From the NCBI GenBank assembly GCA_019694735.1, contig JAIBBJ010000007.1, positions 1 through 32,640 on the forward strand: DNA of 32,640 nucleotides, written 5' to 3'. This stretch comes from Gemmatimonadaceae bacterium. Its GTDB lineage: Bacteria > Gemmatimonadota > Gemmatimonadetes > Gemmatimonadales > Gemmatimonadaceae. A program made the position numbers and the translations under genes. The notes beneath the pieces were generated by a model. That model saw only the letters and a list, made by a program, of their open reading frames with translations, did not search any database and had not been told where the DNA came from. Of the stretch, positions 20,829-31,180 are shown in pieces. The stretch's first letter is position 1, and each line of letters opens with the position of its first letter.

Positions 20829-21806
20829 TCACGAGGCCCGGTCCGGCGCGCCGAGCAGGGCGTGGCGCACCGGCCGCTCCATGTGGAAGAACACGCGGAA
20901 GAGCTCGAACGCGATGATGCAGTCCCACGCGATCACGAGCCAGAGCAGCACCGCCTCCGCCGGGAGGTCCGCCCACGCGACCACGCGCAGCCCCAGCATC
21001 TGCTCGTGCTTGTAGTTCCACCAGTCGTACGGCACCCCGAGCGTGGCCTCCCAGATGAGGGAGACGAGGAGCAGGACGCCGAAGGCGAAGCCGAAGGCGC
21101 GCCAGTTCACGAAGTCCCGGATGGGGCGCAGGAAGAGGAAGGTCGGCAGGAAGCCGAGCGTCATCTCGAACAGGAAGTAGCCGGGGAAGCCGTCGGGATG
21201 CGGGCCGAGGCGCTTGACCGCGAAGCCGAGTCCGAGCAGCACGAGCCATGTCGCGAGCGCGCCCCACGAGAGATGGATGAGCTTCGGCACGGCCCGGGAC
21301 CGTTCCCGGTGCGCGTCCGGGTCGTAGTCGGCCAGCCACTCGTCGTTCGCCCAGAGGTAGACGGCGATCACGAAGAGGGACCCGAGGATGTAGAACGCGA
21401 ACTCCTCGACCGGCAGGTAGGCCGGGGCCCAGGCGAGGGTGGACCAGTCCCAGGCCGGGAGGCGGATGCCGAGCGTGGCGCCCGGGTTCTTGAAGGTGAA
21501 GAACGCGTGCCCGAAGACCGTGTCGAGCAGGAACCCGATGAGTGCGATCGCCCCGGCGGACCAGAGCAGCGCCCGCCGGTGCACGTTGGGGCGGTGCGCC
21601 CGCATGTGGAGGGCGGTCAGCACGAGGACCGGGAAGAGGAAGAGCAGCAGGGAGACCGTGTAGCCGTACGGTGAGACGTCCACCGTGTGCGACGCGTCCG
21701 CGGGCTTCGCCCGCACGGTCGCGAGCGTGAGAATCGCGGGAAGGCCGATGACCAGCACCATCGCGAGGAGGGCGCGGATGTCGCGTTCGGGGTCGGTCTT
21801 GCGCAT
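20829..21806 (-). CDS. Lycopene-cyclase-domain-like membrane protein
   Basis: A 325-residue polytopic membrane protein with about seven or eight segments. Two similar halves carry the hallmark of heterodimeric/fused lycopene cyclases (CrtYc/CrtYd): LPVEEFAFYIL at 131-141 and LPAEAVLLWLV at 281-291. Each follows a helix with an acidic or tryptophan-rich end (GFLLDTVFGHAFF; SLIWEATLGVPYDWW). Known members cyclise acyclic carotenoid ends without redox change; relatives act on other isoprenoids. The second half keeps only one acidic residue of the PxE(E) motif. The neighbours are an alcohol dehydrogenase downstream and, across the cyclase receptor, CruF- and CrtC-like genes. The fold assignment rests on motifs and topology alone. 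Confidence 0.6.
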   Translation of the reverse strand: MRKTDPERDIRALLAMVLVIGLPAILTLATVRAKPADASHTVDVSPYGYTVSLLLFLFPVLVLTALHMRAHRPNVHRRALLWSAGAIALIGFLLDTVFGHAFFTFKNPGATLGIRLPAWDWSTLAWAPAYLPVEEFAFYILGSLFVIAVYLWANDEWLADYDPDAHRERSRAVPKLIHLSWGALATWLVLLGLGFAVKRLGPHPDGFPGYFLFEMTLGFLPTFLFLRPIRDFVNWRAFGFAFGVLLLVSLIWEATLGVPYDWWNYKHEQMLGLRVVAWADLPAEAVLLWLVIAWDCIIAFELFRVFFHMERPVRHALLGAPDRAS

Positions 21807-21872: not shown

Positions 21873-24296
21873 GTGACCGTCCCACAGCGCTCCCCCATCC
21901 ACCTGATCCACGACCTGCTGCAGCGCCACAAGCCGCGGGTCATCGTGGCGTTGCTGGTGCTCTGGGCGGTGGGGGCGGCCTTCCGCCTCCTCGAGCTGCG
22001 GACGCCGCCGGCGCCGGACCTGCGGGTGACGCGGAGCGCGGACGGCGGGGCGCCGAGCCTCCTGATGTTCTTCGACTCGACCGACGCCGTCGGGTCGCCG
22101 CTGCGGGTCGGGGACCGGCTCGTGCAGGTCGGCGACCGGCCGTTGGCGGGCGTGGGCCAGTTCGGCTTCCTCGTCGCCTGGCACGGGGCCTGGTGGGGAC
22201 GCGGCGATTCGCTCCCGATCGTCGTCGAGCGGGACGGCACCCGGATGACCGTGCAGGAGTCGCGCCGGTCGCCCAACATGGGGCGCTACGTGCAGACGTT
22301 CACGCTCTCGCTGCTGAACGTGCTGGTGGCCCTGCTCGTCCTCGCGCGCGGGCGTCCCTCCCTCGGATCGTCGGCGCTCGTGTTCGGCATGGCGGCGTAC
22401 GGTCTGATGTTCATGACGCGCTCGATGGTGCCGGGCTGGTATTTCCCGGTGCAGTTCCTCATCGCCGTCGTCACCGCCTGCTGCGCCGCGCCGGGGCTCC
22501 TGCTGCTGGCCCTCGGCTTCCCCGACGAGGCGGGCCGCCTGCGCGGACCGCACCTGTGGTGGCCGTGGGCGTTCACGGGCGTCAGCCTGGTGTGGGTCTC
22601 GATGGTCTACGGCCTGCCGATCCGGTCGGACGTGGCCGTCCAGCTGGGCCAGCCGCTGTCCGGCCTCTGGGTCGTGCTCCAGCCGATCATCTACACGCTG
22701 AACTTCCGCGCGAGCAGCGCGGCCGGCCGCCGCCGCGTGAAGTGGGTGATCGCGGGCGCGTACGCCGGCTTCCTCCTCACCCTGCTCGTGATCCTCGGGA
22801 CCGGTGAGATCGCGCAGAGCGAGGATTCGCCGCCGTGGGCCACCCTGACGATGGGGCTCGCGGGCGGCCTCTTCCCGCTGTCGCTGCTCGTCGCGATGCT
22901 GCGCGCCGACCTCTTCGACGTGGACCGGCTGCTCGGCGCGACCGTGTCGTACAACCTGCTCGCCGTCCTCGTGCTGGGGGCGGGGTTCGCGGTGGTGCCG
23001 GCGCTCTCGGCCGGCATCGGCGCGCAACTCGGTCTCGACCCGGCGATCGGCCGCACGGTGATCACGGTGACCCTCGCCGCGCTCGCGCTCGGCGCGGAGC
23101 GCCGTGTGCGGCCCTACGTGGACCGGTTCTTCTTCCGGGAGCGGTTCGCCCTGGAGCGCGCGATGGCGGAGCTGCCGGAGCACTTCGCCGGCGTCCGCCG
23201 CGCGGACGAGCTCTGGACGCTGATGACCGGTACGCTCGACGAGACGCTCCGGCCGGCGAGCAGCGCGCTCTTCCTCTCGGCAGGCGACACCTTCGTGCCG
23301 ATGCAGTCCGCCGATGGCGGCATCGCGAGCGCGCTGCCGGCACGCACGCCGCTGGTGGCGTGGATCGACGGGCTCCCCGGGGCCACGCTCGTGCGCCCCG
23401 GCATGCCCGGGCCCGGCGCCGAGGGACGCCAGCTCCTCGAGAGCCTCGGCGCCCGGGTCGTCATCCCGATCCATCGCGGTCGCGCGCTCGAGGCGATCCT
23501 CCTGCTCGGCGAGAAGCGGTCGGGCGACATCTTCACGTCCACCGACGTCACGCTGCTCACCTCGATCGCGAAGAGCGCCTCGAGCCACCTGCTGCGGTTC
23601 GACGAGCAGGAGCTGGTCGCGCGCGCCAAGGAGATGCAGGACAAGATGCGCCGCTACGTGCCCGGCGCGATCGCCGAGGCGATCGCGCTCGGCGACGACC
23701 TCGAGACCGGCGAGCGCGAGGTCTCGGTGCTCTTCGTGGACATCCGCGGCTACACGGCGTACGCGCACGGCCGCGACACCACGGACATCTTCTCGACCGT
23801 GAACCGCTACACGGAGACCGTGAGCGCGATCGTGAACCGCTGCGGCGGCGTGGTGGTCGAGTTCAACGGCGACGGGATGATGGCCGTGTTCGGCGCGCCG
23901 CGGCCGCTGCCCGCCAAGGAGGCCGCGGCGGTGCGCGCCGCGCGCGAACTGGTGAGTGCGGTGCCGCGGATGGCCCCGGCGGGCAGCGACACGACGCTCG
24001 GCGTGGGGGTCGGCGTCGCCACCGGGCTCGCGTTCGTCGGCAACATCGAGGCGGTCGACCGCACGATCTGGAGTGCGATCGGCAGCACGACCAACCTCGC
24101 CGCGCGGCTGCAGAACCTCACGCGGGAGCACGGGGCGAGCGTGCTCGTGTGCGAGACGACGTGGCAGCGGGCGGCGCAGGAGGCCGCGGGCTTCACGCGG
24201 CTGGCGGACATCGCGATCCGCGGGCGCCGCGGCACCGATACGCTCTACGCGCTGCCGCTCACGCCCGCCGGCGGAACGTCCCCAGCGACGGCATGA
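21873..24296 (+). CDS. PDZ/7TM/GAF class III nucleotide cyclase
   Basis: An 807-residue membrane receptor. There is a TM helix at 22-40, then a periplasmic PDZ-like domain (about 50-132, core PLRVGDRLVQVGDRPL). A multi-pass block follows at 142-410, ending in RVRPYVDRFFFRERF as in 7TM histidine kinases. A GAF-like region lies at 430-570 and a class III cyclase at 615-795. Metal aspartates are D623 (FVDIRGYT) and D667 (FNGDGMM). Transition-state residues N741 and R745 (NLAARL) are intact, so it should be active. The base-specifying position is E663 where adenylyl cyclases carry lysine, and S734 is at the partner position. The GTG at 21873 avoids overlap with the divergent gene. Its 3' end overlaps the CruF-like gene by 38 bp. 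Confidence 0.88.
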   Translation: MTVPQRSPIHLIHDLLQRHKPRVIVALLVLWAVGAAFRLLELRTPPAPDLRVTRSADGGAPSLLMFFDSTDAVGSPLRVGDRLVQVGDRPLAGVGQFGFLVAWHGAWWGRGDSLPIVVERDGTRMTVQESRRSPNMGRYVQTFTLSLLNVLVALLVLARGRPSLGSSALVFGMAAYGLMFMTRSMVPGWYFPVQFLIAVVTACCAAPGLLLLALGFPDEAGRLRGPHLWWPWAFTGVSLVWVSMVYGLPIRSDVAVQLGQPLSGLWVVLQPIIYTLNFRASSAAGRRRVKWVIAGAYAGFLLTLLVILGTGEIAQSEDSPPWATLTMGLAGGLFPLSLLVAMLRADLFDVDRLLGATVSYNLLAVLVLGAGFAVVPALSAGIGAQLGLDPAIGRTVITVTLAALALGAERRVRPYVDRFFFRERFALERAMAELPEHFAGVRRADELWTLMTGTLDETLRPASSALFLSAGDTFVPMQSADGGIASALPARTPLVAWIDGLPGATLVRPGMPGPGAEGRQLLESLGARVVIPIHRGRALEAILLLGEKRSGDIFTSTDVTLLTSIAKSASSHLLRFDEQELVARAKEMQDKMRRYVPGAIAEAIALGDDLETGEREVSVLFVDIRGYTAYAHGRDTTDIFSTVNRYTETVSAIVNRCGGVVVEFNGDGMMAVFGAPRPLPAKEAAAVRAARELVSAVPRMAPAGSDTTLGVGVGVATGLAFVGNIEAVDRTIWSAIGSTTNLAARLQNLTREHGASVLVCETTWQRAAQEAAGFTRLADIAIRGRRGTDTLYALPLTPAGGTSPATA

Positions 24297-25224
24297 GCAG
24301 GAGCAGGATGCCGTCGGCGATCACCGCCGTCATCAGGAGCGTCCCGGCGAGGCCGCTCGCTCCCGCGATGCCCATCGCGTAGAAGAGCACGCCCCAACTC
24401 GCGTAGGCGTACGCCGGCCAGGCCACGCGGCCCCAGGAGAAGGGCGTGTCGAAGCGCAGGTGCCGCCGCTGCGTCAGGATGAGCAGCCACGGGAGCGCGA
24501 CCACGACCGCGAGCGCCGTCCACTCGGCGGCCGGGCCCGACGAGCCCGGGATCCGGCTCAGCTGGCCGACGAGGGCGTCCATGCCGATCGCGAGCACGCC
24601 GAGCCCGACCAGCATGGCCGCCTGATGGAGCGCGCCGCGCGTCTCGCCCTTGCCCCACTGCCGGCCGGCGCGCACGGTGAAGGAGAGCATCGTGATGACC
24701 GTGAACCAGCCGAGGAAGTTCGCGGTGGGCACGGAGAAGAAGAGCGGGGTGGGGTCGTCCGGCGGGACGCACCAGACCCAGAGCTCGAGCCCGCCGCTGA
24801 GCGGTCCGGTCTCCTGCATGCAGGGCAGCACCGTATTCGGCGTGAACCGCGTCGCGCTCATCACCGGGTCGAGCATGAGGTCGATCGTCATCGCCAGCGC
24901 GCCGTCGAAGAACGGGCGCTGCCACCAGGGCAGGCCGAGCGCGTCGCTCGTCCGGCCGACGACGTAGAAGAGGCAGGCCCAGCAGACGCCGATCGTGTAC
25001 GGCACCCAGTCGGGCGGGGCGCCGAACATCAGCCAGAGGTCGGCGTAGTCGTAGTCGTGCGTCGTGTGCAGCGCGAGCGACTCGATCGCCATGCCGTACA
25101 CGAGCGCGACGAGGAGGGCGAGCATCAGGTAGCGGCTGTCGCGGCGCGCGTGGACGAGGTACCACGCGAAGATGAGGAACGGCGGGATGACCGCGAGCGC
25201 GACGAGCCAGGTGGGGATGGACAT
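24259..25224 (-). CDS. CruF-like carotenoid biosynthesis membrane protein
   Basis: A 321-residue polytopic protein resembling the DUF422/CruF family (1',2'-hydratase of carotenoid ends, such as bisanhydrobacterioruberin hydratase). Visible landmarks are MAIESLALHTTHDYDY (about 45-60), DLMLDPVM (115-122) and FFSVPTANFLGWF (about 162-174). The last matches the GVPxxNFLGW block of that family. Known members add water across a terminal double bond of acyclic carotenoids. It is 49 bp downstream of the CrtC-like gene, which performs the same type of chemistry with an unrelated fold. The convergent stop runs 38 bases into the cyclase receptor. Confidence 0.7.
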   Translation of the reverse strand: MSIPTWLVALAVIPPFLIFAWYLVHARRDSRYLMLALLVALVYGMAIESLALHTTHDYDYADLWLMFGAPPDWVPYTIGVCWACLFYVVGRTSDALGLPWWQRPFFDGALAMTIDLMLDPVMSATRFTPNTVLPCMQETGPLSGGLELWVWCVPPDDPTPLFFSVPTANFLGWFTVITMLSFTVRAGRQWGKGETRGALHQAAMLVGLGVLAIGMDALVGQLSRIPGSSGPAAEWTALAVVVALPWLLILTQRRHLRFDTPFSWGRVAWPAYAYASWGVLFYAMGIAGASGLAGTLLMTAVIADGILLLLMPSLGTFRRRA

Positions 25225-25273
25225 CAGGCGAGGGACGGTGGGAGGAGCGCGGTGCGCGGGCGGTGCCCCGGGA

Positions 25274-26314
25274 TCACTGGCCGACCCAGGGAAAGCGGCG
25301 CCAGAAGAACGCCTGCGCGCGCGCGCCGATCGCGGCGAGGCCGCGCGCCCAGGTCGGGAGGTGGAAGTACTCGACCCAGCCGGTGCCGGCCGGCCCCGCC
25401 TGCGGCGTCCAGGTGATCCCGGAGCGGTCGTAGATCAGCGTGTCGAGGAGCGCGCCGGTCGACACGGCGCGCCAGCTCATCCCCGGGACGCCGACCGTGA
25501 GCGCGTGCGGGTAGCGCAGGCCGTTCCACGCATCCTTGCGCCAGTCGCTGGCCTCGACCGTGAGGTCGGCGGTCACCGTGGGCTGGAAATCGCCCATCGG
25601 CGCGCGGTAGCAGAAGGTCAGGGCGCCCTCGAAGCCCTCGGCGGGCGTCACCTTCGCGAACATCACGCCCTCGGCCGGGGTGGCGGCGCGCGCCCAGTTC
25701 CATTCGTGGTGTGTCGCGAAGAGCTGCTCGGTGCCCCACGGGTGGTCGTGGTAGCCGCGGCCGCTGATCGGCGCCGTGCGCCCGCCGACGGTGATCGTGC
25801 CCGTGCCGCGCATCAACGGCGCCGCGAACGCGACGGCGGTGAAGCGGCGCGGGTCCTCGCGGTGCGTGAAGTAGCGGCCGTCGGCCGTCGGGAGGAAGCC
25901 GAGGTGCTCGGGGGTGAGGGTGAGGTCGGCGGAGAGCCACTCCGTGCGCACCGTGACCTCGTAGCGCAGCGTCTCGGGGCGGTCGCCGACGAGCCGCACC
26001 TGCGAGTCGGCCACGCGGAGCACGCGCCCGTCCGGCCCCTCCGCCCAGCTGAAGGCCGCCTCGGGATGGTTGCGCACGTGCTTGAACCCCGAGGCCCCGT
26101 CGTGGTACTCGACGTACACCGCGGACTTGCCCGGCGCGAACACGGGGTTGCGGCGGCTCAGCACCAGCACGAGCGAGCGCCCGTCGGCGGACGCGAGGTC
26201 GAAGTACCACCACTCGAACGCGTTCGTGGAGAAGGCGATCTCGTCGGCGGTGAGCTGCGGACCGTCCCAGGGGATCGCGTACGGCGCGAACGGCGCCGGG
26301 ATGCCGTCCGCCAC
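25274..26314 (-). CDS. CrtC-like carotenoid 1,2-hydratase family protein
   Basis: A 346-residue soluble protein of the CrtC/AttH lipocalin-like superfamily. The two diagnostic blocks are FEWWYFDL (33-40) and GRGYHDHPWG (185-194), with a further HHEWNWAR at 202-209. CrtC hydrates the terminal double bond of acyclic carotenoids such as neurosporene. Homologues also modify other isoprenoids or are of unknown role. There is no signal peptide. The GTG start at 26312-26314 directly abuts the receptor stop (TGAGTG), so translation is probably coupled to the TonB receptor. The pairing with the CruF-like gene supports isoprenoid hydration as the theme. Confidence 0.8.
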   Translation of the reverse strand: MADGIPAPFAPYAIPWDGPQLTADEIAFSTNAFEWWYFDLASADGRSLVLVLSRRNPVFAPGKSAVYVEYHDGASGFKHVRNHPEAAFSWAEGPDGRVLRVADSQVRLVGDRPETLRYEVTVRTEWLSADLTLTPEHLGFLPTADGRYFTHREDPRRFTAVAFAAPLMRGTGTITVGGRTAPISGRGYHDHPWGTEQLFATHHEWNWARAATPAEGVMFAKVTPAEGFEGALTFCYRAPMGDFQPTVTADLTVEASDWRKDAWNGLRYPHALTVGVPGMSWRAVSTGALLDTLIYDRSGITWTPQAGPAGTGWVEYFHLPTWARGLAAIGARAQAFFWRRFPWVGQ

Positions 26315-28822
26315 TCAGCGCCTCCAGCCGAGCGTGACCAGCGCGCGCCGCTCGATGGCCGAGCCGCCGAGCACCTGCACGCGGCGCTGGTCGAGGACGT
26401 TCGTGCCGGCCAGCGAAACGGACCACCGGTCCCCGAGCGGCAGCCGCGCGTGGAGGTCGATCGCGGTCGCGGCGGGCAGCGTCGCGACCCAGGCGCCGGT
26501 GCGCGCCGCGAACGCATCCTGGTAGCGCGCCCCGAGCCGCAGCCGGAGGCCGCGCGGGGCCTGCCAGGTCGCGGCCACGTTCGCCTGGTGCGCCGGCGCG
26601 TTCGCGCTGATGGTGTCGCCCGCGGCGAACGATCCCTGCTCGAGCGAGAAGTCGTAGAAGGTGTAGTTGGTCTCGAGCCGCACGCGGTCGGTGGCCTGCC
26701 ATGCGAGCGCGAGCTCGGCGCCGCGCTCGGTCGCGCGTCCCGCGTTCCCGAACGAGACGACCATCGCGGTGGAGCCGTCCGGCAGTCGCGTGATGAGGCG
26801 GCCGAGGGCGCCGATCACGGCCTGCGCGACGGCATCGCGCGCCGGCTCGGGCACCGCGTCGGGCGCGGTCCACGCGCCGTAGGCCGCATTGCGCCCGGGG
26901 AGGAGCGAGGTCGCGAAGTCGGTGATCGTGCTGGTGTAGACGTCGATCGTCGCATAGAGTCGCCCGCGCTGCAGCTTGTAGCCCGCCTCGATCCCGGTCA
27001 CCACCTCCGGCCGGAGGGAGGCGTTGCCGAGGGCGAACACCGGGACGGCGCTCGAGGTGGTGAAGAGCGTACCGTTGGCCACGCCGGCGAGCGCGGGCCC
27101 GAGCGGTGAGGCGCGCAGCCCGGCTTCGAGCGCGCTCAGGTCCTGCGGTGCGCCGGCGGGGAAGCGCAGGAACCGCTGGAACGGGCTCGCCGCGAGGTAG
27201 CCGCGGTTCCAGGTGAGGCGCAGCGTCTGGTCCGGCGCCGGGGTGTAGACCAGCCCGAAGCGCGGCGAGGCCTGCGGCTCGAACATCGTCCCGTCGTCGT
27301 ACCGGGCGCCGAGCACGGCCTTGAGGGTCGGCGTCACCGACCAGTCCACCTGCTGGAAGACCGCGAACACGTCGTCGCGGCGGTCGTCCTCCGCCGCGGC
27401 GAGCACGGTGCCCTCGGAGTCATTGCGCACCTGGCGCACCGACGCCCCCACGACCCAGCGGCCGCGGTCGCCCGCGAACCGGAAGGTGCGCTGCCCCTCG
27501 AGGTGCCAGACGCCACCCCTGTCGATGCCGGGCGTGCCGCTGGCGAGGGAGACCTGCTCGCCGTCGCGGCCGGTGTAGTAGGCGAACACGCTGTAGGCGC
27601 GCGCGGTGAGCGCCACCCGCGCCCACGGCCGGTCGGCGCGCACCACCTGCGAGCGGGACACGCCGGTGTTGATGACGGAGTTCTCGACGCGACTCGCGCC
27701 GCCCTCGACGGTCAGCACGGCGCCGTCCCGGCGGTAGCGGTCGGCACGCACGGTGCCGTACTGCACGCGCACCGGGTCCGGCGTGCCGCTCGCCTCGCCC
27801 GGGACGCCGAAGGCCCCGGCCTTCGTCTGGCCCGCGAGCGGCAGCACCTCGTAGCCCGGGGCCGGGTAGTGCACCGTCCCGGGCGCGAAGCCCGCCCGCT
27901 CGTACTCCGCGTCGACGTCGCCGAGGGCGGTGCGCGCGCGGTCCCACGCGCGGCTCTGCTGCCACCCGGCGGAGACCCGCACGCCCCAGCGCCCGTCGTC
28001 GGTGAGCCACGCCTGCCGCACGTCCGCGCGGAGCGCGCCGAGCATGCCCGTGGTGAGGTCCACGCGCGTGCCCGGCGTCTCGCGCACGCTCGGCGTCGTG
28101 ATCGCCAGCACGCCGCTGAACGCGTTCGCGCCGTAGAGCGCCGCGCCGGGGCCGCGGACCATCTCCACCTGCGTCGCGTCCTCGAACGCCAGGAGGTCGG
28201 CCCATTCCTGGTTCCCGAGCAGCGGGATGGAGACGTCGCGGCCGTCCACGAGCACGAGCGTGCGCCGATTGAGCGGCGTGTTGAAGCCGCGGGTGTTGAG
28301 GTTGAAGTCGAACAACCCCGCCTGTGCCGCGCGGACGCCGGGCTGGTCGGCGACGAGCATCGGGAGCTGGCCGGTCGCGGCGAGGTCGCGGACGCGGTCC
28401 GGCTCGACGCTGATGATCGCTGCCGGCGCATCCACCAGGCGTTCGGGGGTCCGCGAAGCGCCGCTCACGCGCACGAGCCCGAGCTGCACCGGATTCGCGC
28501 GCAGTGCGAGGTCGAGGGTCCGCGTCTCACCCGCCGCGAGCGTGACCGTCTCGGTGCGCGGCGCGTACCCCAGCCACCGGAAGCGCACGGTGTAGGTGCC
28601 GGCGGCGATCCCGGCGAGCCGATAGCGTCCGCTGCCGTCGGTGGAGGCCGCCCGTCCGTCGCTCACATCGATATGGATGCCCGCTAACGCCTTCCCCGAC
28701 GCCTCGTCGGTCACCGTGCCGGTCAGGATCGCCGCCCCCTGCGCACCGGCGAGGTGCGCGGTCGTGAGGGAGAGCAGGCACGCGACGCGGCGGGCGACAC
28801 GGGCGAACGACGGGATGGCCAT
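26315..28822 (-). CDS. TonB-dependent outer-membrane receptor
   Basis: An 835-residue receptor. A signal peptide (ending AHLAGAQG) is followed by a carboxypeptidase-regulatory-like domain (about 30-110: GTVTDEASGKALAGIHI, GRYRLAGIAAGTYTV). The plug is at 120-245 (TPERLVDAPAAI, LNTRGFN, LVLVDGRD, VEMVRGPGAALYGANAFSGV), then a 22-strand-type barrel to the end, with a terminal LVTLGWRR aromatic strand. Such receptors import metal chelates, sugars or hydrophobic compounds; the ligand is unknown. GAGGA stands about seven bases before the ATG. It abuts the CrtC-like start, an unusual partner for a receptor. The 84 bp upstream, to the kinase stop, hold only a weak hairpin (28853-28869). Confidence 0.93.
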   Translation of the reverse strand: MAIPSFARVARRVACLLSLTTAHLAGAQGAAILTGTVTDEASGKALAGIHIDVSDGRAASTDGSGRYRLAGIAAGTYTVRFRWLGYAPRTETVTLAAGETRTLDLALRANPVQLGLVRVSGASRTPERLVDAPAAIISVEPDRVRDLAATGQLPMLVADQPGVRAAQAGLFDFNLNTRGFNTPLNRRTLVLVDGRDVSIPLLGNQEWADLLAFEDATQVEMVRGPGAALYGANAFSGVLAITTPSVRETPGTRVDLTTGMLGALRADVRQAWLTDDGRWGVRVSAGWQQSRAWDRARTALGDVDAEYERAGFAPGTVHYPAPGYEVLPLAGQTKAGAFGVPGEASGTPDPVRVQYGTVRADRYRRDGAVLTVEGGASRVENSVINTGVSRSQVVRADRPWARVALTARAYSVFAYYTGRDGEQVSLASGTPGIDRGGVWHLEGQRTFRFAGDRGRWVVGASVRQVRNDSEGTVLAAAEDDRRDDVFAVFQQVDWSVTPTLKAVLGARYDDGTMFEPQASPRFGLVYTPAPDQTLRLTWNRGYLAASPFQRFLRFPAGAPQDLSALEAGLRASPLGPALAGVANGTLFTTSSAVPVFALGNASLRPEVVTGIEAGYKLQRGRLYATIDVYTSTITDFATSLLPGRNAAYGAWTAPDAVPEPARDAVAQAVIGALGRLITRLPDGSTAMVVSFGNAGRATERGAELALAWQATDRVRLETNYTFYDFSLEQGSFAAGDTISANAPAHQANVAATWQAPRGLRLRLGARYQDAFAARTGAWVATLPAATAIDLHARLPLGDRWSVSLAGTNVLDQRRVQVLGGSAIERRALVTLGWRR

Positions 28823-28906: not shown

Positions 28907-31180
28907 TCAGGGGACGGCTGACCCCGGGGCGTCGAGGAGTGCCCGGAGGGCCGGCAGGCCGAGGAGGGGCGCGAAGGCCGGGCGCACGCGCACCAGCGGC
29001 AGGTCCACGGCGCGGACGGCGCGGGCCTCGGCAAGGTCGGCGAGGGCCGCGGCGGTGTCCCCGAGGCCGACGCGCACCTGGGCGAGGAGCACCGGGGAGA
29101 TGAACTGCGTCGCCCGCAGCCGTTCGAGGTCGGCGAGCGTGGCGCGCGCCGCGTCCGCCCGCCCGGCGCGCGCCTGCGCGAAGCCGAGCGCGGCGCGGGA
29201 CTCCGCGCTGCCGTTCGAGAGCGCGACCGCGCGGTCGATCGCGGCGAGGGCGTCGTCGAGGCGACCGGTCTCGACCAGCGCGAGCCCACTGAAGAGGTGG
29301 GCCAGGCCGAACGCCGGGTGCTGCTCGAGCACGAGGTGCAGCTCGCGCACCGCCTGCTCGGCGTCCCCCTCGTAGAGGCGCAGGATGCCCCCGCTCGCGG
29401 CGATGCTCGGCGAGAGCGGGTCGAGCTCGCGGGCGCGCGCGACCTGGGCCCGCGCCTCCGCGAAGCGGCCGAGCGGGGCGAGCAGGTGCATCGCGTACCA
29501 CTGGTGCGTGAGCGGGTACTGCACCTGCCCGGCGAGCGCGGCGAGATAGTCCCCCTCGGCGCCGTCCCAGTCGCGGTCGTGCAGCGCGCGCACCGACGCG
29601 CGGGCCGTCAGCGCCTCGACGGCGTCGGCGCGGATCGCGAGCGCGCGGTCGGCGGCGGTCCGCGCCGCGCCCAGCGCCTCGGTCGGGGACGCGACGCCGT
29701 AGATCGCGCGTGTGACGTGGCAGTCGGCGAGGCCGGCGAGCGCGAGCACGAAGCGCGGGTCGAGGGCGATCGCGCGCTCGAGGTGCTCGAGGCAGCGCTG
29801 CAGCGATGCCGGCGTGCGCTGGCTCCACTCGAAGCGGCCGCGCAGGTACGACTCGTATGCGTCGAGGTTCGAGGTCGGCGTCGCGACGATGCGCGAGGTC
29901 TCGCCGAGGAAGCGCACGCGCAGAGTGTCCACGATCGCGTGCGAGATCTCGTCCTGCACCGCGAAGACGTCGGTGAGCTGCCGGTCGAAGCGCTCCGACC
30001 AGCGCTGGATCCCGCTCTCGACGTCGATCAGCTCGCAGGTGATGCGGAGCCGGTCGCCGGCGCGGCGGACGCTCCCCGAGAGGATCGAGCCGACGCCGAG
30101 CGTCGCGCCGACGGTGCGCGCATCCACCGCGCGGCCCTTGAAGGCGAAGGCCGAGGTCCGGGCGACGACGCGCAGCGCCGGGATGGCCGAGAGCGCGTGG
30201 CCGAGGTCCTCGGCGAGGCCGTCGCCGAGGTACTCGTCGGCCGGGTCGCCGCTCGCGTTCGTGAAGGGGAGCACGGCGATCGACTTGAGCACCGTGGCAC
30301 CGGAGCGGCGCGCCGCGGGCCGGACCGGGGCCGGCTGCGTGAGGGTGGTGATGAACTCCTCGATCGTCGCCGGCCGCTCGTCGCGGTCGCGGTGGAGTGC
30401 GCGCAGCAGCGCGCGCTCGACGTGCGGCGGCAGCGGCTCGAGCGTCCGCGAGGGCGCGAGCACGGTGCCGACCGCCTTCTGGGCGAGGATCGCGGTGGCG
30501 CTGGGGCCGCTGAACGGCGGGCGACCCTCGAGCGCCTCGTAGAGCACCGTCGCCAGGCCGTACACGTCGGCCCGCTCGTCCACGTCGCCCTCGCCGAACA
30601 TCTGCTCCGGCGCCATGTACGTGGGGGTGCCGACGAACATCCCCTCCTGCGTCGTCGTGCTCGCGTCGCCCTCGAGCGCCTTGGCGATGCCGAAGTCCAC
30701 GACGAAGGCGTGGCCGTGCTGGAGCAGGATGTTCTCCGGCTTCATGTCGCGGTGGACGACGTGGCGGCTGTGCGCGTAGCTGAGCGCCTCGCCCACCTCG
30801 CGGCCGTAGCGCAGCGCCTCGTCGAGCGCGAGCCGCTCCACCCGCGCGAGCCGCTCGCGCAGCGACTCGCCGTCCACGTACGGCATCACGAGGTACAGCA
30901 TCCCCGCCGCGTCGCCCGAGTCGTAGATCGGCACGATGTGCGGGTGCTGGAGGCGCGCGGCGGTGCCGATCTCACGGAGGAACCGCTCGGCGCCGAGCGT
31001 GAGCGCCACCTCGGGGCGCAGCACCTTCACCGCGACCGGCCGGTCGTGCCGGCGGTCATGCGCGAGCAGCACGAGCGACATCCCGCCGGCGCCGACCTCG
31101 TGCCCCAGCGCATAGCGGGTGTCGAGGGCCGCGCGCAGCGTCGCGATGGGGTCCGGCGGATCGTGGGACGGCGTGGACAC
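28907..31180 (-). CDS. Ser/Thr protein kinase with TolB-like and TPR regions
   Basis: A 757-residue protein. The Hanks-type kinase domain (about 20-280) is complete: GAGGMSLV loop, VAVKVL (K52), HRDMKPEN (D145), DFGIAKA (D162) and APEQ. A TolB/FlgO-like region follows at about 298-430 (KSIAVLPFTNASGDPADEYLGDGLAEDL, ILSGSVRRAGDRLRI). Tetratricopeptide-type helices then run to the C-terminus (repeated ALAxAD, LGFAQARAGRAD). No membrane segment is visible, so this is probably cytoplasmic. The architecture is typical of Gemmatimonadota and Acidobacteria and implies phosphorylation with protein-protein contact. The GTG start at 31178-31180 is 10 bp after the tgt stop, so the two are cotranscribed. 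Substrates are unknown. Confidence 0.92.
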   Translation of the reverse strand: MSTPSHDPPDPIATLRAALDTRYALGHEVGAGGMSLVLLAHDRRHDRPVAVKVLRPEVALTLGAERFLREIGTAARLQHPHIVPIYDSGDAAGMLYLVMPYVDGESLRERLARVERLALDEALRYGREVGEALSYAHSRHVVHRDMKPENILLQHGHAFVVDFGIAKALEGDASTTTQEGMFVGTPTYMAPEQMFGEGDVDERADVYGLATVLYEALEGRPPFSGPSATAILAQKAVGTVLAPSRTLEPLPPHVERALLRALHRDRDERPATIEEFITTLTQPAPVRPAARRSGATVLKSIAVLPFTNASGDPADEYLGDGLAEDLGHALSAIPALRVVARTSAFAFKGRAVDARTVGATLGVGSILSGSVRRAGDRLRITCELIDVESGIQRWSERFDRQLTDVFAVQDEISHAIVDTLRVRFLGETSRIVATPTSNLDAYESYLRGRFEWSQRTPASLQRCLEHLERAIALDPRFVLALAGLADCHVTRAIYGVASPTEALGAARTAADRALAIRADAVEALTARASVRALHDRDWDGAEGDYLAALAGQVQYPLTHQWYAMHLLAPLGRFAEARAQVARARELDPLSPSIAASGGILRLYEGDAEQAVRELHLVLEQHPAFGLAHLFSGLALVETGRLDDALAAIDRAVALSNGSAESRAALGFAQARAGRADAARATLADLERLRATQFISPVLLAQVRVGLGDTAAALADLAEARAVRAVDLPLVRVRPAFAPLLGLPALRALLDAPGSAVP

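Follow-up and report, generated by a model that had tools for sequence, protein, structure and literature searches.

A TonB receptor gene run with CrtC-like and CruF-like genes in Gemmatimonadota: a possible module for isoprenoid uptake and end-group hydration or dehydration

Introduction

What does an outer-membrane receptor gene do when it is joined end to end with members of two unrelated hydratase families? The question is raised by a 32,640-nucleotide stretch of DNA from a Gemmatimonadaceae bacterium (genome G000), referred to here as the window, in which a TonB-dependent receptor gene is followed directly by a CrtC-like and then a CruF-like gene. CruF orthologues have been described in carotenoid-synthesising bacteria without crtC, and the reason for the existence of two independent hydratase families has been called unknown (PMC6013536). 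A first-pass annotation of the window had proposed that the three genes serve the uptake and hydration of an exogenous carotenoid or other isoprenoid. We have examined this proposal through the layout of the locus, its recurrence in other genomes, the accompanying carotenoid genes and the family membership of the encoded proteins.

Results

Organization of the gene run

The receptor, CrtC-like and CruF-like open reading frames form, as first annotated, one run on the minus strand. The extent originally given to the run, 24259 to 28822, holds for these three genes and proved too narrow for the conserved block, since genes for a protein kinase, an adenylate cyclase and an LCD protein are further conserved neighbours:

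20829–21806, minus strand: LCD (lycopene-cyclase-domain-like) membrane protein, sub-threshold match to TIGR03462
21879–24296, plus strand: membrane class III adenylate/guanylate cyclase (PF00211), presumed start in a frame open from 21687
24259–25224, minus strand: CruF-like integral membrane protein with several long helices (PF04240)
25274–26314, minus strand: CrtC-like double-lipocalin protein with GTG start (PF07143; AlphaFold model; Asp190, Trp205/Trp207, EWWY at residues 34–37)
26312–26325, minus strand: receptor/CrtC-like junction (GGAGG 26321–26325, TGA 26315–26317, GTG 26312–26314)
26315–28822, minus strand: TonB-dependent receptor with CarboxypepD_reg-like N-terminus, plug and beta-barrel (Pfam PF13620, PF07715 and PF00593)
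28907–31180, minus strand: Ser/Thr protein kinase with TPR repeats (PF00069)

The two junctions are those first described: the receptor stop touches the CrtC-like start with no bases between them (TGA followed by GTG), and 49 bp separate the CrtC-like from the CruF-like gene. A Shine-Dalgarno-like GGAGG lies six bases 5' of the GTG, and translational coupling from the receptor to the CrtC-like gene is likely, while the spacing of the genes suggests co-transcription of the run. The kinase gene lies 84 bp upstream of the receptor on the same strand, the cyclase gene is convergent with the CruF-like gene (38 bp tail-to-tail overlap) and the LCD gene is divergent from the cyclase gene. Plug and barrel of the receptor score far above the Pfam cut-offs (PF07715, 50.7 bits; PF00593, 123.9 bits). 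No dedicated inner-membrane transporter was found in the module, which weighs against a role in uptake. Contamination of the window contig is not supported: in tetranucleotide composition, the cluster correlates at 0.99 with the rest of the window and at 0.99 with contig C212 of the same genome.

Recurrence of the module

The adjacency is not peculiar to this genome. The same order recurs in other genera at protein identities of roughly 40–60%, so that the arrangement is more than chance. Among 395 Gemmatimonadota genomes, mostly draft assemblies, it was found in four, belonging to three genera: the window's own genome, G126 of the same genus, G115, and G374 of a third genus. The full order (kinase, receptor, CrtC-like, CruF-like, convergent cyclase, and LCD gene divergent from the cyclase) is present in G000 and G115. 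G126 has the same order minus the CrtC-like gene and the kinase, the latter not being found beside its receptor. The G374 module is split over contig ends, with kinase and receptor reaching one contig end and two variant contigs holding the end of the CruF-like gene, the cyclase convergent with it and the start of the divergent LCD gene. These two contigs (L189:1–3309 and L190:1–3309), each of 3309 bp and covering the same module end, differ at 226 positions, as if they were two strain variants.

Conservation extends to every gene of the block. Identity to the window protein is 57%, 54% and 60% for the receptors of G115, G126 and G374, 57% and 65% for the kinases of G115 and G374, 49–54% for the cyclases found in the same position in G115, G126 and G374, and 62% and 51% for the LCD proteins in the same position in G115 and G126, the N-terminus of the G374 LCD protein being at a contig edge. 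The CruF-like gene is single in G000 and occurs as two tandem copies in G115 and in G126. The CrtC-like gene is present in G000 and G115 and absent from G126 (in G374 the module is split at contig ends); its absence from G126 marks it as dispensable for the module and counts against a combined uptake and hydration function. Stop/start contact at the receptor/CrtC-like junction occurs in both genomes that have the gene, in G115 as a one-base overlap (TAGTG) in a contig with an assembly gap nearby.

The distribution of the parts is patchy. Among 200 genomes of the phylum, a clear relative of the CrtC-like protein was detected in G115 only (52% identity), the CruF-like clade in G000, G115 and G126, and LCD profile matches in these three and in G039. 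That the three CruF-like genomes are all among the four with an LCD match would be expected with a probability of about 3e-6 if genomes were independent (four out of all possible triples of 200 genomes), a figure that overstates the case because the genomes are related. The identities of 57% and 54% between the G000 receptor and those of G115 and G126 compare with 62% and 80% for the squalene-synthase protein; module divergence thus does not track genome relatedness, and patchy inheritance or transfer is the likely history of the module. When the GTDB genome collection was scanned with the alignment of CruF-like proteins, no member of the module CruF-like clade turned up outside these relatives; the other matches there are 23–32% identical. 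A plasmid collection yielded one distant LCD match (Granulicella) and one distant CrtC-like match (Streptomyces), neither with the module; the former, on a Granulicella tundricola plasmid (L191:13998–14945), is a 36% LCD homologue annotated as hypothetical amid sugar-degradation genes.

Two local features of G126 were also recorded: a short repeat of GTGGTGAACCC-like units where the receptor gene joins the first CruF-like gene (L015:11205–11272), and a small membrane-protein gene that overlaps the receptor start (L015:8234–8731) and has neither a family match nor an identified counterpart in the window.

Carotenoid genes in module-bearing genomes

The first-pass annotation pointed out that carotenoid core genes are missing from the window. 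This is correct for crtI and crtB within the window itself and does not extend to the genome, where crtI, crtB and a canonical cruF lie side by side on contig C20. The idea that the organism lacks crtB and crtI was therefore rejected, and the C20 genes indicate that it probably makes carotenoids. Carotenoid synthesis is known from Gemmatimonas species (PMC8342508).

A profile search of G115 and G126 returned no crtI above cut-off. Neither genome has a canonical CruF or a crtB of the phytoene-synthase type, and the single SQS_PSY gene of each is of the squalene-synthase type and syntenic with the squalene-synthase-type gene on C212 of G000. With completeness at 95% for G115 and 99% for G126, loss of crt genes in both through incomplete assembly is unlikely. 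The order is thus conserved in genomes with and without crtB and crtI, and the module is kept even where carotenoids are not made via crtB and crtI, hence independently of their synthesis. The rhodopsin profile PF01036 gave no match in three genomes, and the controls gave no match either.

These observations bear on the possibility that the substrate of the hydratase-like proteins is an isoprenoid made by the cell itself (a carotenoid in G000; elsewhere squalene, hopanoid, menaquinone or polyprenol) and that the receptor takes up a different compound or serves some other purpose. The crtI-crtB-cruF genes on C20 and the squalene-synthase-type gene of G000, G115 and G126 speak for such a role, yet G115 and G126 retain the module while having none of crtI, crtB and canonical cruF; moreover, the receptor is part of every module copy and is stop/start-coupled to the CrtC-like gene wherever the latter is present. 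We regard action on a self-made isoprenoid as a serious, if rather unlikely, rival to the uptake reading.

The CrtC-like protein

By sequence, the CrtC-like protein barely reaches Pfam PF07143 (22.8 bits, gathering cut-off 22.5) over profile positions 82–168 only, its G115 orthologue scores 24.3 bits, and the NCBIfam equivalog for carotenoid 1,2-hydratase, NF045922, gives it 15 bits against a cut-off of 400. Structure prediction places it in the CrtC/AttH superfamily: the AlphaFold model, which is moderately confident (pLDDT 69.4) and has a predicted C-terminal helix, shows the double-lipocalin fold of that superfamily. It matches AttH with a Z-score of 22.7, kievitone hydratase with 20.8, 25-phosphosteroid lyase with 17.9 and the Diels-Alderases Fsa2 and CghA with about 20, the next unrelated structure following at 7.6.

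Residues D190, W205 and W207 have a spacing identical to that of D268, W283 and W285 in CrtC of Rubrivivax (RgCrtC), a correspondence judged on spacing and not through alignment with RgCrtC itself, and W35/W36 fall within the EWWY motif at 34–37, the RgCrtC residue list including W110. In RgCrtC, D268, W110, W283 and W285 are required, as their mutation impairs or abolishes activity (PMC12402844). Because the same Asp/Trp residues are conserved in AttH-like proteins of unknown function, they support hydratase-type chemistry, short of proof. In addition, RgCrtC substrates include many C12–C20 terpenes beyond carotenoids, so that the substrate of the CrtC-like protein need not be a carotenoid. 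With the Rubrivivax gelatinosus enzyme, the CrtC-like protein has in common the superfamily, the double-lipocalin architecture, the Asp and WxW spacing and a predicted terminal hydration; unlike it, the window protein, of very low sequence similarity to CrtC, sits outside a carotenoid cluster and is coupled to a TonB receptor.

Of the proteins with the same fold, kievitone hydratase hydrates a double bond of a prenyl group (PMC5805349) and 25-phosphosteroid lyase has been assigned the elimination of phosphate from C25 in the side chain of sterols (PMC11061730), in each case with a tertiary centre made or removed at a prenyl or isoprenoid end. At 12–14% sequence identity to the CrtC-like protein, their substrates are not implied for it. 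Inspection by eye revealed no evident signal peptide, which makes a cytoplasmic location probable. A separate observation is a CrtC-domain protein fused in-frame with a region resembling a prenyl-diphosphate synthase in G144 (L101:1501–3624).

The CruF-like protein

The CruF-like protein matches Pfam PF04240 at 39 bits (cut-off 25) and gave no match at E <= 1 to the NCBIfam CruF equivalogs NF045693, TIGR03460 and NF041333; the canonical CruF copy on C20 matches all three, below their cut-offs. Among 38 PF04240 sequences, the residues invariant in the family are all kept by the CruF-like protein (E48, P75, D115, W149, W151, N169, G172 and W173). One row with a mis-called frame (L023) was left out of the first CruF alignment before modelling. 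In a tree, the module copies form their own clade of five (support 100/99), nearest to archaeal Methanoperedens/Salinigranum rows (89/89), and canonical Gemmatimonadota CruF, including the own copy of G000, forms a separate clade (100/99). The structural model is confident (pLDDT 93.8), and a fold search with it gave no PDB match at E <= 0.001 (best Z 5.4). In Bacillus, Pontibacter and elsewhere, PF04240 genes adjoin crtI, and no crtI match was found within the fetched flanks of the Methanoperedens relatives.

The window protein thus resembles CruF (gamma-carotene 1',2'-hydratase; bisanhydrobacterioruberin hydratase) in belonging to the PF04240 membrane family with invariant E, D, W, W, N and W; unlike CruF, it has no curated-model match, stands in a separate clade and belongs to a module with the gene duplicated in tandem in two of four genomes. 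Elsewhere in bacterial draft genomes, tandem arrays of PF04240-type genes were seen, one of about seven genes (L045:240–7667) and one of three (L061:9515–12539), with acyl-CoA dehydrogenase genes nearby and not crtI/crtB, and the family may therefore have roles outside carotenoid synthesis.

Cumulatively, the CrtC/AttH fold and PF04240 membership uphold the family placement first given to the two proteins and not their identity as carotenoid hydratases, given that the canonical CruF clade does not include the CruF-like protein and that enzymes acting on non-carotenoid prenyl ends share the CrtC fold. A narrower form of the isoprenoid-uptake reading, in which specifically an exogenous carotenoid is taken up and hydrated, draws on the fact that CrtC, CruF and lycopene-cyclase-type families act on psi-ends in known pathways (PMC11306087, PMC6013536). 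With no curated carotenoid-hydratase model reached, no crtI match in the fetched flanks of the closest CruF-like relatives and a characterised CrtC that also accepts short terpenes, we consider this form quite improbable; a carotenoid is a possible and not the favoured substrate.

The LCD protein and looser relatives of the receptor

The LCD protein and its orthologues match TIGR03462, the lycopene cyclase domain family, repeatedly over the C-terminal half and always below the cut-off of 39.4 (window 25.2, G126 21.6 and G039 31.1 bits); the G115 protein gave no match to this model. Our search of the literature on the lycopene cyclase/rhodopsin superfamily, and on TonB together with carotenoid uptake, found nothing on point.

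Two looser arrangements support, by their gene content, an isoprenoid theme. In G051, of another family, a receptor, a PF04240 gene, a different, AAA-domain cyclase and a large protein of FAD type lie in one run, and in G039 a homologous receptor is convergent with the LCD gene, with a cyclase-AAA gene behind. The G039 LCD gene also adjoins the only MPAB_Lcp (rubber/prenyl oxygenase family) gene of that genome, which directly precedes it and is separated by it from a gene for a DUF6989 protein weakly matching TIGR03462 (L106:8110–10945). As it was found in G039 only, MPAB_Lcp was rejected as a regular component of the module. In Steroidobacter cummioxidans, TonB receptors are among the possible routes of oligo-isoprenoid uptake (PMC5979037); unlike that organism, neither the window nor the rest of G000 has a rubber oxygenase.

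The receptor family matched in 41 genomes, mostly without such neighbours, and 37 further fetched stretches had mostly unrelated ones, so that genomic context does not mark the family overall as isoprenoid-specific. This variety would fit mere synteny without common function, the receptor serving a siderophore or similar ligand, as would the apparent abundance of TonB receptors, with dozens of first-look candidates per genome. Since the block is patchy (4/395 genomes) and its parts nevertheless travel together, and since module divergence departs from genome relatedness, we hold this explanation to be very improbable. Still less credible is a sensing module in which the CruF-like and LCD proteins bind a ligand without catalysis and the cyclase and kinase relay the signal: both are conserved neighbours and cyclases also flank the G039 and G051 relatives, but catalytic-type residues are kept in the CrtC-like and CruF-like proteins and the cyclase is convergent, outside the operon.

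Discussion

The explanation that we tentatively favour, while giving it somewhat less than an even chance, is that the core of the module serves TonB-dependent uptake of an isoprenoid and hydration or dehydration of its chain end. What is in hand is the gene order in four genomes, two of them free of crtI and crtB, the CrtC fold with its residue spacing, and the PF04240 invariants. From these we infer enzymatic activity, reaction direction, import, substrate identity, joint action and regulation; the element that points to uptake is solely the presence of the receptor. Given the recurrence, the CrtC fold with catalytic residues and PF04240 membership, the first-pass proposal can be faulted neither as peculiar to one genome nor as a wrong family assignment, and it gains from recurrence without crtI and crtB and loses on the curated carotenoid-hydratase models, none of which is reached.

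In the proposed isoprenoid uptake and end-group conversion, the receptor would carry an isoprenoid-containing compound across the outer membrane. Water would then be added to, or removed from, a terminal prenyl group by the membrane-embedded CruF-like protein and a CrtC-like partner located in the cytoplasm or at the inner face of the membrane, via protonation by Asp and a tertiary carbocation. The same kind of end group might be the target of the LCD protein; the kinase and cyclase are possible regulators.

A bolder claim appears to us rather doubtful: that the locus represents a dedicated outer-membrane route for an exogenous isoprenoid, with members of two unrelated hydratase families and the LCD protein processing the import, including in bacteria without carotenoid synthesis. 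Were CrtC-type and CruF-type proteins to work as a coupled pair outside carotenoid synthesis, this would suggest a wider isoprenoid chemistry for both families, would point to isoprenoid uptake via TonB receptors and would supply new candidate terpene hydratases.
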